A DNA stretch of 64,000 bases, taken from Sodiomyces alkalinus F11. Its lineage: Eukaryota > Ascomycota > Sordariomycetes > Glomerellales > Plectosphaerellaceae. Below, piece by piece: positions 9,681 to 16,523 of the stretch. A program made the translations under genes and the position numbers. The DNA lies in contig NW_021167079.1 of the NCBI RefSeq assembly GCF_003711515.1, forward strand, positions 981,471 through 1,045,470, given 5' to 3'. The notes beneath the pieces were generated by a model. That model had not been told where the DNA came from and ran no database searches. It saw nothing but the letters and a program-made list of their open reading frames with translations. Within the stretch, counting starts at the first letter, position 1, and every line of letters starts with the position of its first letter.

Positions 9681-10201
9681 GTGGTGTTAAGGGGGGGCTG
9701 AGGCTCATGAACCACTAGGGGACTGTTTCAACAACAGAAAATCCACTAAAATATAATACGTACACGCCTACACAGGCTAGTATATAAGGGCACACGATGA
9801 TACACGAAAATATAGTAGTAGAATAGGGCTAGTTAAACCAAGCAATCAGATCGCGGTGAAAAAAAATCTCGTCCCTTACTGTAACGCCACGCCCACCACC
9901 GAATCTTATTTTTCCCTCTCCAGACAACCAACGAGTCAGGTAAGTCACCCGACCTACACCCTTACACAGAGCTATTCCATCAAATCAAGTATTACGATTT
10001 GAATCAACAGGGCCAGATCTGCTGGAATCCTACTTTTCAGAGCTGTTTTTGTAGTTTTGGTGGTGCTATTGTCGTGGAGCTGGTTTAGCTGGTTTGGCAG
10101 TTAGCTAACATGGGACATAATAATAGTGACAGTCTTCAACAGTACTACCTTATACAACAAAATACACACACATACAGCCTATTACCGCTATTTACGATAC
10201 A
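9681..10201. other. AT-rich intergenic region
   Basis: No ORF with recognisable content. Base composition is clearly more AT-rich than neighbouring coding DNA. It separates the broken MFS copy from the DUF3716-like gene. Confidence 0.5.
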
Positions 10202-11031
10202 ATGGAGAAGATTGCTTGGCCTGACGAGATTGGTGGCGAGATTTTGCCTGATGCCCCTGATAAACAACCTCAGCAACTACGCGGCCCTGAGCTCAATGCA
10301 TATATTATGAAGCGTACGTGTGTGTACGTATCTGTATGGGATAGAGCTAACAATTGTGGATATAGTTTTCAAGGAGATGTGCCCCTCCACCGTCGCCCGC
10401 CATCTTGGCGAAAATAACCTTGAGGTACGTACTATCCTACACTATCGTACAGGCCTATACACTAATGTACAAAGCAGATCAAACGTGGCCTCGAGTTACG
10501 CCTCCGGTATATGAAAGGGGGTCAGGTCAAAATTCCTAATTTTGACATGACAAGGCAGCAGTCCCTCTCTGGATTTTATATCCAGATGTACGGAGAGGAA
10601 CAAAAAGGCGACGATATATGCGGGAGGTGTGCGAAGAACAAGGGCAATCTGGTGGGCTGCTACGTCTTGGAGGGTTTTGCCAAGGGAGCGTGCGGCAATT
10701 GCCTCAGTGGTTCGGGCGGCAGTGTATGCTCGCTGGCCGGTACGTGCATCTTTAGTGGTGTGTGTTTGTGTACGATCGTGTACTAACCTAACCTGTATTA
10801 GACTGTACGCCTGCGCCGCGTAAAAGAAAGGGTTCAGTACTAGGTGGCTCTCTTAGTAAGCGTCCTAGGGAAGATGACGACGAGGCTGCCCTGGACGGTA
10901 TCCCCTCTAAGCATTTAGAGACTTTCGCGAACTTCCTCTACAGCGTGGTTGAGCGCCGTAGCCGCAGTAAGCCACTATACCCCTCCGTATTATACTATAC
11001 TTGCTTTTTTTCTTTTCTCTTTACTTTTTGA
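10202..11031 (+). CDS. DUF3716-like cysteine-rich protein
   Basis: Four exons (10202-10313, 10366-10424, 10478-10739, 10802-11031) join in phase, with good GTACGT donors and TAG/CAG acceptors. The core (exon 3) has the spacing CGRCAKNKG...GCYV...GACGNC...VCSLA, which matches the cysteine pattern I know from the ascomycete DUF3716 family. No function is established for it. Exon 4 is basic then acidic (KRKGSVL..., REDDDEAALDG). A GTAAGC donor after the YSVVERRSR segment suggests a further intron, so the natural C-terminus may differ from the TGA at 11029-11031. The gene sits in AT-rich DNA beside a broken transporter. That is the sort of setting where this family is often lineage-specific. Confidence 0.65.
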
Positions 11032-11575
11032 CTTTTTTTATTCTTTTTTTTGGTTAATTTTCTTTTCCTTTTTTGAGTTTAATAATACCCGGTTACGTTA
11101 TTATAATTATAAATCCGAATATAATATAGTAGTATAAAAGTAAACAATATACTAAGTAATATTAATATATAGGAGTATATCTAAAGTAGTAGTATAATAG
11201 TATATACTAGTATAATAGTAGTAAGTAAGATATGAAAACATTTATATCATTTTATTTACCTGTCTAATATCCCAGTGAGACACTCTTCCTTCCGCCATCC
11301 GCCCAGAAGTGGGATCCGGACACACGAACAAAGACCAGATAGAGGCCGCACACGTGAACCATTTTCTTTACACTACAGTCTACAAGCCAGCAGGGGTTTT
11401 CGTCCATTAAAGGTTTTCAGATCAAATACTAAGGTAAGTAATAAACACGTTCCATCGGCTCCGGTATTAGCCTGCAGCAATCCAGGGTCAAATTCGCAGT
11501 AGCGGCCCACCACCCAGCAGGATATATGCTCGACTTCATATCAATACCACCGCTGTTGAGGAAGCACATTAGGAA
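11032..11575. other. AT-rich stretch with a degenerate copy of sequence from the arsM last intron
   Basis: From 11040 to 11270 the DNA is almost entirely A and T with no coding content. From about 11310 to 11345 a segment (GGACACACGAACAAAGACCAG and following) resembles 11648-11688, in and around the last arsM intron. No gene is supported. Confidence 0.5.
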
Positions 11576-12858
11576 CTACCCCTCCAATGGTTTGACGGCA
11601 AAGATCTTGTATGACCCTAATAGTATTACCAGAACGATTAGCCGGGTTCGACACACGACAAAGGTCAGATACAGCGAAGGGGGCACATACCAATCCACTC
11701 ATTCAAGTCAATATCACCAATCTCAGCCGCCATTTTGGCCAGATCAGCCTGGGCAGCAGTCGTACTTTCGGAAGCCGCCTCGGACTCTCCAGACGGGCCA
11801 ATGTCCTTTGAGCCGCAGCAACCTCCCTGGTTCGCCGAAGGTGTCGGAGCTCCGCAAGTCGAGTCATTCGAGGAGCTAGTACCCCCATTCTTGGCCTTTT
11901 TTGTGCCATCAGGAAGAGTATCCAAGTATACATTCAAATCGGCGTTGGCGTCTTTGATCAGGACGTCTGTACATGTTGGGGGTTGCGTTGCTTTCGTTAG
12001 CTTCTGTGGTGGCTCGCCGGTCCTAGTTACACTCCGTGCACCGGGCCCTGGGATATGAAAACCTACCGCTAAACCCAGCCTCTCGTAGGTACGTCTGGTA
12101 CTGCTCGACCAAGCTGGCGCCGGCAATGCACCCGACATAGGCCGCAGCGCACCGTCGCAACTTCTCCGACAGCGGCTTCTTGGCCAGGATGTCCGAGATG
12201 GCAAGGCGACCGCCAGGCTTGAGCACGCGGAAGACCTCGTTGAAGACGAGCTGCTTCTCGTCCTCCGGGACGAGGTTCACGACGCAGTTGGACAGAACCA
12301 CGTCGGCGGTCCCGGAGGTGAGGGGGATGTCGGTAATCATTCCTTCGACGAACTCGACGTTTGTGGCGCCGGCGCCGACCTTGTTCTTTTCTGCCAGCGC
12401 GAGCATGTCCTAGATCGAATATAAGCACGTTGGAAAGGAAAAGAGGGGAATACGAATCTGTGGCATGCCTTGTTCATGTCTATACCAATGGCCCGACCCG
12501 TCGGGCCGACTTTCTTGGCCGCAAGAAAGACGTCGAAGCCTCCCCCTGATCCTAGGTCGACAACCGTTTCTCCCTGTCGAAATTTCTCTGTTAGTCTTTC
12601 GCGGTCGTTGATTTTTAAACGATCAAGGTGAACGGGACAGGACAAGATGCCATATACCTCGCGTATGCTTGCCATAGCCAAGGGGTTTCCGCAGCTTAGT
12701 CCGAGGTTGGACTCCGCCGGGATGCTGGAGAGCTCCTCTTCGCTGTATCCGAAGGACTGCGCGACTGAAGTGCCGTAGCCACGGCTGAGCTGGGTCGCAT
12801 CAGTCGCCAGCGAGCCATAGTGCTGCGTGACAGCCGAGTAGATTTTCTTGGTGTCCAT
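11576..12858 (-). CDS. arsM: Arsenite S-adenosylmethionine methyltransferase
   Basis: Five exons on the minus strand (12858-12658, 12573-12469, 12409-12067, 11966-11691, 11616-11576) give 321 residues. The Rossmann SAM site is [11 protein letters not shown] at about 71-81, followed by GIDMNK. Three cysteines sit in family positions: Cys56 in LGLSCGNPL, Cys144 in LSNCVVNL and Cys196 in YVGCIAG. These match the As(III)-binding cysteines of ArsM/AS3MT. The enzyme methylates arsenite using SAM and thiols. The intron 12574-12657 is 84 nt, in frame and without a stop. Removing it restores the [13 protein letters not shown] join. The intron 12410-12468 has a GC rather than GT donor. The last exon is only 41 nt and restores the [10 protein letters not shown] ending; without it the frame stops after CPLRCI. 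The region before the tail is Gly/Ser/Cys-rich (GGCCGS). Confidence 0.9.
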
Positions 12859-13561
12859 AGTGTCAATGGGTTCAAGCTTGATGTTGTAACTTGTGTGGGA
12901 ATTTGTAATCTGCAGAATATAGGTGATGAATGGTGAGGAATCAGGATCGGTTGTGTAGCTCGTGTTGGGTAAGAAGACAGACGACGAGGTCAGTATATAT
13001 ATATATATGTTTTGACAACTGAACTGCCACGTAAAGAAAGCTCCACGTGCTTTATTATCATGCAGGATGTCACTGAATTATTTCCCACCTTGGTGGGAGT
13101 CGGACCAGTCGGTGAGACTGCATCAAGTGACGTCGTGGCGCTGCCAAAAAGGGAAACTATTTCGATATGTCACCGGCCCAGACGTCGGATCAATGCATAA
13201 GCGCGAGAATAAACGTGCGCTAACCCGTCCCATTAATAAACTGTGGCGTGCAGATGATAGGCGGAAATGTCTTGGACCGTTGGACGTCTGTGCATTTGGG
13301 AACCCATGAGCTTGCGACTGAGCACTATCGAGTATCGGGCACGAAACGGCGATCGAGCGATTGTCTGGCGCAATTCTTCATTAACAGCCACCACGGACCG
13401 GGACCACGGTAACCAGGACGTCCTTGACAGACTCGTTGCACTTAATCCAGAAGAAACTTCGCCGAATCCCTGATCATTGACGGAGAGCCGCCCGGGCTAT
13501 ACGAACATGCAATGCACACTATGTACGTAAATGACACATAGACTACACTTTGTATTTGTCC
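12859..13561. other. Promoter region of arsM
   Basis: No gene is supported. An AT dinucleotide run lies at 12994-13008. This is the upstream region of arsM on the minus strand and the 3' side of the bZIP gene. Confidence 0.5.
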
Positions 13562-14419
13562 TCACAATGGGTTGATAGTGTCCAGGACTGAGAAGACACT
13601 TGTGCTCACAATTCGACAGCCCTCCTCGGGGACGGTGGCGCCCCGAAACCCTGGGCCCAGCCGGTCGCTCAAGGCACGCAAGTCGAGCCGGTTGCAGCTT
13701 TGGTCGGAAATAATGGCGTCGGCGACGATGCATGGAATGGTCGATTCCCCCGGCGCCTGTTGTGGGAAGCGGAAGGCAGCCTCGAAGAAGATATCGGTCG
13801 AGGCATTCTCGTCCGCGAGTGGTAAAGACAGACGCTCACGCTCCCCCCCAGCGACGCGGTCGCGGTTGAATGGAAGATGGGATTCGTGAGAAGAAGAGGA
13901 GTTCTTGGGAGAAGGTCCTCCTCCCGGCGATTGTGAAGACCGTGTTGACTTTGGTGCTCGAGGTGATGGAGGTGGACCTGGTACAACTGGTGAAGATGCC
14001 GATTCAGATGGCGATGACTTTGAAACAGGCGTCGAAAAACGTTCTTCTGGCCCGGGTATGTCCTCTGAGCCACCAGTCGAGGACGTAGACCCAAGTTTGT
14101 ATTCTGCAGTATGAGGTTCCGAATCTTCCGATTCCTCCGAATCCATCTCCAAAGTACGTCCTAGTCCTTGGCAACCGGCGCAGAGAAACGGCCGACGAGT
14201 CGCGCAAAGTGTTCTCAGGTCCACCATCTCGGACTGAAGCTCGGCATTTGCGGCCAACGCATCGGAAAGCTGCGCTCGTGCTTCGTCCAGCTGGCGCTCC
14301 AAGTCTTCGATATACGCTTTTCTCCGGGCGCGATGGCGGCGTTGGTTCTCTCGGACCCGTATTGTGTTGTGGTCCTTGGGCTTTGAAGACCATTTGAGAA
14401 TCATTCCTGGAGATGTCAT
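13562..14419 (-). CDS. bZIP transcription factor, candidate regulator of the arsenic locus
   Basis: Single exon, 285 residues. The basic region is IRVRENQRRHRARRK at about 20-35, with Asn and Arg spaced as in bZIP signatures (N-x7-R), followed by a leucine zipper in LERQLDEARAQLSDALAANAEL. Downstream come a Cys pair (LCAGCQG) and a long Ser/Pro-rich disordered stretch. The C-terminal region (about 200-285) is conserved-looking and has further cysteines (STIPC, DQSCN, EEGC). bZIP proteins bind DNA as dimers in the nucleus. It lies between arsM and an arsenate reductase gene on the same strand, so control of arsenic genes (as yeast Yap8/Arr1 does) is inferred from position. The sequence does not prove Yap8 orthology. 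Confidence 0.85.
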   Translation of the reverse strand: MTSPGMILKWSSKPKDHNTIRVRENQRRHRARRKAYIEDLERQLDEARAQLSDALAANAELQSEMVDLRTLCATRRPFLCAGCQGLGRTLEMDSEESEDSEPHTAEYKLGSTSSTGGSEDIPGPEERFSTPVSKSSPSESASSPVVPGPPPSPRAPKSTRSSQSPGGGPSPKNSSSSHESHLPFNRDRVAGGERERLSLPLADENASTDIFFEAAFRFPQQAPGESTIPCIVADAIISDQSCNRLDLRALSDRLGPGFRGATVPEEGCRIVSTSVFSVLDTINPL

Positions 14420-14695
14420 GATGGAGCGAGAATACTTTGTTGTTTCCTCAAGATGTTGATGAATATCCAGGACTGAACGACTGATAGGCAGGCCGCAGAA
14501 TCGTAGGGCGAGGCAGTTGAGGTCTGCCGGAAGTCAAGACTCAAGAGGGCGGAAGTGATGTGATTAGGTAAGTTCAAATGAGGTGATATTCTGATGACCA
14601 ACTGGAAGTTTTCCATTTTGGGACGGGGCGATTAGTCATTAATCGAATCGGATTTAAGCCCCCCCTTGGTCCAAGTCATGATCACCATTCACCAT

Positions 14696-15330
14696 TCACG
14701 ACCATGCGGTTTCGTCATACTCGTCCATCCACTCTGTGAACTCGGGCCCTGCAGCCACCCAGCCTTTAATTCCTCCCTTCAGTAGCACGCTCTGCAAATC
14801 TTTATCCCCCCGCTCAGCCAGGTAGTCGGCTAGCCATCCAGCGGCCCGCGTCCCACGACCGGCAGACGAACCTGTCTCGGTCAGCCAACGTTATCCATCA
14901 TGGAACGAGACCGCAATCTTTCGGACATACCACAGTAGAAGATGACCTGTTTGACCCCTGCCGCTTTGAATAGGCCATAGAGGGTCGGGATAGATGGGTA
15001 GAGCGACTGGGCCGGTAGGTTTATCGATCCGCGGACCGTACCTCCCTGCAGACATTGGCGGTGTTCACGTCAACGGTCAACGGTCAACCTCAAATCAAAC
15101 GTCTCCGGCCTTCAATGTCGCTTGGGCATTCTGCTCACCTGGTGATCATTGCGGCGAACATCGACAAGAACAAAGTCGTTGCTGGCTGCATTCTCGCTTC
15201 GCCCCTTCAGCAAGGCCAGAACCTCCTCGCTAGACAACGACGCGGGTTCGGAGGTCTTTGGCTTCGGGTAAGCGGCATGCCACGGCGCCTCGGGGGCGGC
15301 AGCAGCTCCTGTTTCGGGGCCGGCAGACAT
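14696..15330 (-). CDS. Arsenate reductase, Acr2/Cdc25-rhodanese type
   Basis: Three exons on the minus strand (15330-15139, 15045-14931, 14871-14696) join in phase to give 160 residues. The fold is rhodanese/Cdc25-like: LVDVRRNDH, then GGTVRGSINLPAQSLYP, then the active-site loop IFYCGSSAGRG. Cys102 and Arg108 form the C-x5-R motif used by Acr2-type arsenate reductases and Cdc25 phosphatases. The C-terminal LLKGGIKGW segment is a usual rhodanese signature. The reaction is reduction of arsenate to arsenite with thiol cofactors, in the cytosol. The adjacent arsM would then methylate the arsenite. Without an assay, a phosphatase or sulfurtransferase role cannot be excluded. Location beside arsM supports the arsenic role. 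Confidence 0.85.
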
Positions 15331-16074: not shown

Positions 16075-16523
16075 TCAAATAGAGACCTTCGTGGCATCAA
16101 ACCCGTCAGCCGCAACCCGGAGCATTGGCGACCACCAGAATGGATGATCGACCGAGGAATGGATCGTGAGAATGCTGGCGGCGACGAAGACGAAGGGGTC
16201 GACGTCGAGGTGCTCGAGCAGACTGGTCAGGTCGGCTGTGAACGTGGCCCACGTTACGTGGTCCTTCGTCGTAGGCCCGTTGGTCCAGCCCAGTCGCTTT
16301 GGCCGAAACCGCGCCGGGTCGGTGGCCACGATGCGGTACCGGTGCTTGTCAACGAGGTCGCTGTAGAAGTGGTCGTACATGCGCGAGGACATTGGCCAGC
16401 CGTGGATGAAGACGAGGGTCAGGCGCTGGATAGGCGGCGCGGTTGTCGATGGGCCTGGAGTGTAGTAACGGTAGTAGAGGGAGGTACACCGTACCATCGA
16501 CGGGGCTAGAGAAGGCTGGCATG
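16075..16523 (-). pseudogene. Broken alpha/beta-hydrolase (epoxide hydrolase/lactonase-like)
   Basis: The minus strand encodes YYRYYTPG..., then FIHGWPMSSRMYDHF, ATDPARFRPK and LTSLLEHLDVDPFVFVAAS, the opening of an alpha/beta-hydrolase with its oxyanion HGWP motif. The apparent start, MPAFSSPVDG from 16523, is in another frame. A 7-bp extra segment (GGTGTAC, a near-duplicate of GGTAC next to it) at about 16484-16494 separates the two frames. Downstream the nucleophile elbow, acid and histidine regions are absent, and the frame runs into unrelated sequence ending at 16075. It is therefore a 5' fragment that is also frameshifted. An alternative, a splice-rescued short protein, would still lack the catalytic residues. 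Confidence 0.75.

Follow-up and report, generated by a model that had tools for sequence, protein, structure and literature searches.

In a window of 64,000 nucleotides from the genome of Sodiomyces alkalinus F11 (C1:981471-1045470; genome of 43.4 Mb in 22 contigs), three adjacent genes, acr2-like, bZIP and arsM in that order, lie on the minus strand from 15330 down to 11576 (3.76 kb). We interpret this locus as a compact, locally regulated arsenic-detoxification cluster in which the bZIP protein serves as a dedicated arsenic-responsive regulator, a reading to which we assign a probability of about 0.6. In the proposed mechanism the Acr2-like enzyme would reduce arsenate to arsenite, ArsM would then methylate arsenite, and the bZIP protein would control arsM and probably also acr2. 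An unlinked Acr3 would export arsenite, and a sister bZIP beside arsH would serve methylarsenite oxidation. An initial annotation of this DNA had placed three neighbouring minus-strand genes within 4 kb here, and that arrangement is confirmed. The regulator, its most speculative part, is better supported than the annotation could know.

The arsM gene, encoding an arsenite S-adenosylmethionine methyltransferase of 321 aa, has five exons at complement(12658..12858, 12469..12573, 12067..12409, 11691..11966, 11576..11616), and its product is identical to a public S. alkalinus protein (P0204). A 349-aa model that retained an in-frame intron was rejected; the 321-aa version is the public protein. 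The intron at 12410-12468 has a GC donor in place of GT. The bZIP-family gene is a single exon of 285 codons at complement(13562..14419), and the acr2-like gene, of rhodanese/Cdc25 fold, has three exons at complement(15139..15330, 14931..15045, 14696..14871) and encodes 160 aa with 100% identity to a public S. alkalinus F11 protein (P0084). The bZIP open reading frame (ORF), unlike both neighbour genes, is listed without a public source and may therefore be absent from the public annotation. The residues singled out in the initial annotation, Cys56, Cys144 and Cys196 of ArsM and C102-x5-R108 of the Acr2-like protein, keep those numbers in the corrected gene models. A genome search at E 0.001 found no second copy of arsM or of the acr2-like gene, and the bZIP gene has one partial paralogue.

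Linkage of the bZIP gene to arsM and arsH

Linkage was read from the contigs and locus tags of listed matches (22 named rows for the bZIP protein), and a species was taken as comparable when both proteins were listed; the 120 listed ArsMs included none from the remaining bZIP species. Besides S. alkalinus, the bZIP and arsM genes share a contig in all five comparable species, namely Xylariaceae FL0662B (153,784 bases), Zalerion maritima (155,305 bases; consecutive tags 007358/007359), Pleurostoma richardsiae (269,800 bases), Coniochaeta 2T2.1 (938,562 bases) and Gaeumannomyces hyphopodioides (6,286,465 bases; consecutive tags 002173/002174). If genomes of 40 Mb are assumed, the product of the chances for linkage in 5/5 species is ~4e-10. 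The orders of the linked species, as looked up, are Glomerellales (S. alkalinus), Calosphaeriales, Magnaporthales, Lulworthiales and Coniochaetales, and Xylariaceae belong to the Xylariales. The acr2-like gene is a looser partner of arsM than the bZIP gene is: it was found on the same contig as arsM in 7/20 species and on the same contig as the bZIP gene in 2/4, once on a contig of 3.6 Mb. In P. richardsiae the acr2-like gene is g10617 and the bZIP gene g10619. Taken together, these counts exceed what chance would give.

A second member of the bZIP family occupies a place beside arsH. The window bZIP, used as genome query, found itself and a place on C5, the latter through the basic region only. 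Two relatives used as queries (P0047 and P0043) found both parts of the family protein at the window locus and at C5:1469163-1469875 only, along with five more weak, partial matches (E 0.04 to 0.76). An independent search located the one ArsH of the genome, which passed its equivalog cut-off, at C5:1470144-1470764; a gap of 269 bases separates the arsH match from the end of the bZIP paralogue match, and the two are on opposite strands, tail to tail. The basic region and C-terminal domain of the paralogue (L014, L019) are in different frames, which could result from introns or decay. None of the 11 ordinary loci that match Pfam bZIP_1, 10 of them above the cut-off, was near an arsenic gene, the nearest being at C5:730488, ~740 kb off. 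With 1 kb allowed per gene, a randomly chosen place would lie 1 kb or less from one of the four arsenic genes with a probability of ~2.8e-4. Fisher's test of 2/2 family places against 0/11 ordinary ones gave 0.013, in a comparison whose first copy was the seed. The idea of a local regulator, put forward as a candidate in the initial annotation, gains support from this second copy and from the 5/5 linkage to arsM.

The linkage was also followed on trees of ArsM. Relatives were the 120 listed of 8000 scored, from which two tandem-domain proteins were dropped to leave 118, and a careful tree was built from 37 picked from those 118. All six bZIP-linked ArsMs fall within one ten-member clade (SH-aLRT 93 in the 118-protein tree; 99/95 in the 37-protein tree). 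On the larger tree the linkage label requires 4 changes, and 2/500 shuffles were as low. A clade uniting the ArsMs of S. alkalinus, Colletotrichum (from the same order) and Microdochium was rejected in the 37-protein tree (p-AU 0.001), the group having been chosen after the 118-protein tree was seen.

The bZIP protein and candidate promoter sites

Judged by its sequence, the bZIP protein belongs to a divergent family whose members combine a bZIP helix with a C-terminal domain carrying two cysteines. Residues 15-74 (14198..14377, minus strand) are predicted to form a 60-residue helix, with pLDDT block means of 95-97 across residues 21-70, and the protein has a weak match to Pfam bZIP_1 (12.9 bits against a cut-off of 27.6; E 0.13). 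With E allowed up to 1, bZIP_1 matched 15 of 32 relatives, the best of them at 3.7e-4, and several relatives are named 'BZIP domain-containing' in UniRef. In the C-terminal domain, residues 211-285 (13565..13789), Cys230 (13730-13732) and Cys268 (13616-13618) are invariant in 83/83 relatives and no further cysteine is conserved. These two residues would be the likeliest place for sensing trivalent arsenic or thiol stress. More doubtful is the wider proposal that this subfamily is a general arsenic sensor of filamentous ascomycetes, in which the invariant cysteine pair would bind trivalent arsenicals and the copies would be split between inorganic arsenic (arsM/acr2) and methylated arsenic (arsH).

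Upstream of arsM are four GACGTC palindromes, starting at 13129, 13181, 13283 and 13417 (13129..13422), which are candidate bZIP sites and are offered as a lead only. Across 124 kb of S. alkalinus DNA with 53 GACGTC sites no other 700-base stretch holds four, although this rarity is no fair test because the cluster was first noticed by eye. When the promoters of acr3, arsH and the C5 bZIP were added to those of the cluster, no 8-mer occurred in four of the six. When the acr3 promoter was set beside those of the cluster, three 8-mers were each present in it and in two of the other three, and some 10-mers are common to promoter pairs, both as raw counts. The palindrome GTTACGTAAC lies upstream of both acr3 (C2) and arsH (C5), which could be chance.

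Several observations count against a dedicated arsenic regulator. The bZIP family is wider than its link to arsM, 12 of the named rows being from Dothideomycetes or Metarhizium; four of the ten ArsMs in the clade above have no bZIP listed; a second Pleurostoma bZIP is on a contig of 39,693 bases without a listed ArsM; and the bZIP and acr2-like genes are on different contigs in 2/4 species. In the 37-protein ArsM tree the linkage label shows no more clustering than chance would give (5 changes; 137/500 shuffles as low), and from the counts in the two ArsM trees a single origin of the linkage does not follow. The GACGTC cluster is found at arsM only, and no 8-mer is common to the promoters of arsM, bZIP and acr2-like. 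This last result would also be expected if the bZIP gene were a bystander beside an arsenic enzyme pair, its linkage a legacy of a Sordariomycete ancestor that co-regulation does not maintain, as would the bZIP tree, where the linked rows stand dispersed among others whose linkage is unknown (5 changes, 58/500 shuffles as low). Chance gene neighbours usually part across orders, however, and the linked species are spread over several; moreover, the second family member stands independently beside arsH in S. alkalinus. We consider a bystander unlikely. The initial annotation had held that a bZIP gene conserved at unlinked sites without arsM would speak against the regulator, and here the outcome is mixed: the C5 copy is away from arsM yet beside arsH, and the extra Pleurostoma copy has no ArsM listed with it.

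Enzymes of the locus and arsenic genes elsewhere in the genome

The 321-aa ArsM protein matched the NCBIfam arsenite methyltransferase NF008823 with 268.9 bits, above the cut-off of 263, and it also matches solved ArsM chains. The 349-aa intron-retaining model was the query in the Pfam, solved-chain, genome-copy and relatives searches, and identities and scores in these are somewhat low because the query kept the intron (NCBIfam 246.9 against 268.9). Cys56, Cys144 and Cys196 are invariant in 118/118 relatives among the matches listed. Membership of this family is strong support for an enzyme that would methylate arsenite. The protein ends in a cysteine-rich tail, of which Cys254, Cys266 and Cys267 are kept in 100, 103 and 101 of the 118 listed relatives, and two relatives (P0208 and P0316), read by eye, have two ArsM-like halves per chain.

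The 160-aa protein matched the rhodanese family PF00581 (34.0 bits against a cut-off of 22.2) and had no match in an NCBIfam search. C102 and R108 are invariant in the 120 relatives listed, of 788. Some close relatives bear the source names arsenical-resistance protein 2 or arsenate reductase (Arc2), and the label 'arsenate reductase' is given because of these names and the linkage. Of the gene identities in the initial annotation, those of arsM and the bZIP gene hold, and that of Acr2 holds by name, fold and motif only. The protein might instead be a Cdc25/Ych1-like phosphatase or a sulfurtransferase, in which case the cluster would methylate only. Among solved structures Cdc25B chains match it best (E 8e-6), and the yeast YGR203W chain matches weakly (E 0.26). 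The active site of Acr2-type arsenate reductases is HC-x5-R, and yeast Acr2 has His before the Cys, where the listed relatives have Tyr (114) or Phe (6) and never His. A housekeeping role is possible as well, since a single such gene was found in the genome. Against this stand the arsenate-reductase names of close relatives and the co-location with arsM in 7/20 species, and we regard a phosphatase or sulfurtransferase as rather improbable and retain arsenate reduction as the putative first step of the cluster.

Pump genes are apart from the locus. The initial annotation had noted no Acr3 or ArsB in the window, and no match was found there, but its inference of methylation instead of efflux is weaker: it applies to the locus and fails genome-wide. 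An Acr3 gene starts at ~C2:1951957, its main exon matching positions 120-326 of the Acr3 equivalog model TIGR00832 with 247.7 bits (whole-protein cut-off 282.8), and a genome without an efflux system was rejected on this exon. Three ORFs around acr3 were scanned: one resembles Asp f 4, and the other two gave no Pfam match. ArsB (PF02040) was absent from the genome. With Acr3 on C2 and ArsH on C5, the arrangement is therefore one locus for reduction and methylation, with ArsH and the pump each at a place of its own.

The cluster is bordered beside arsM by an AT-rich flank (9700-11450) that contains a 91-aa DUF3716 ORF (10511-10786), and a stretch of this flank at ~9877-10049 has seven further dispersed copies of 72-79% identity. 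Upstream of the acr2-like gene, at 16075-16497, is a 140-aa alpha/beta-hydrolase-like ORF that is slightly below Pfam cut-offs and may be a fragment.

Comparison with known arsenic systems

That the bZIP protein is a true, far-diverged Yap/AP-1 protein, its C-terminal domain a Yap1-type cysteine-rich redox domain and the protein hence a Yap8 homologue, is very unlikely: a genome search found the PAP1/Yap domain PF08601 on C9 only and not in the window bZIP, the domain was not among the matches of the C-terminal domain, and that domain had no sequence kinship with Yap1 (736/1655 reported shuffles scored as high).

Arsenic responses of related genes are on record in other fungi. In the portion of text cited here, fungal arsM was up 4.13-fold under As(III) in six fungi (PMC11370035), and in Cladosporium under arsenate two bZIP genes, ArsH and ARR genes were up (PMC12112881); the cited part of the latter spells out the abbreviations ArsH and ARR as other gene families, and the likeness is by description only. 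Fungal arsM has been described as a bacterial transfer, in group IV (PMC5552862, in the part cited). The S. alkalinus ArsM has the family and the catalytic cysteines in common with the proteins described there, and differs in belonging to a subclade that contains every bZIP-linked ArsM found.

In the open-licence literature searched we recognised no description of a fungal bZIP linked to arsM or arsH, and as far as that literature shows, both this family of bZIP proteins and its recurrent linkage to arsM and arsH are new here. Arsenic-gene switching in other fungi looked open in the same literature, and the bZIP family is a directly testable candidate; if the proposed role is true, it would be a source of eukaryotic arsenic-biosensor parts. 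S. alkalinus is a fungus of soda lakes, which are often rich in arsenic. The grouping of regulator and enzymes resembles bacterial ars operons controlled by ArsR, from which the S. alkalinus locus differs in that its genes are separate, eukaryotic and intron-bearing and in having a bZIP protein instead of ArsR.

A published table for Aspergillus fumigatus (PMC3289889), which is the part of that source used here, gives two arsC-arsB(Acr3)-arsM-arsH clusters. In both, reductase and arsM are side by side as in S. alkalinus, and both also contain the pump and arsH, which in S. alkalinus are on C2 and C5; the table, which covers duplicated genes only, has no bZIP. The closest parallel in layout is YAP8/ARR1-ACR2-ACR3 of yeast, where a bZIP gene is likewise directly beside the arsenate reductase gene. 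According to the cited section of a review (PMC6545440), Yap8 is encoded beside ACR2 and ACR3, needs Cys132, Cys137 and Cys274, which have been proposed as arsenic sensor, and is confined to a handful of yeasts, with ACR3 adjoining each time. The S. alkalinus locus has arsM in place of Acr3, which is on C2; comparisons gave no kinship of its bZIP with Yap8, and the Yap8 site is absent from the 64-kb window. The S. alkalinus bZIP may work like Yap8 beside ACR2/ACR3, but it comes from another bZIP family, and its locus has methylation where that of yeast has the pump.
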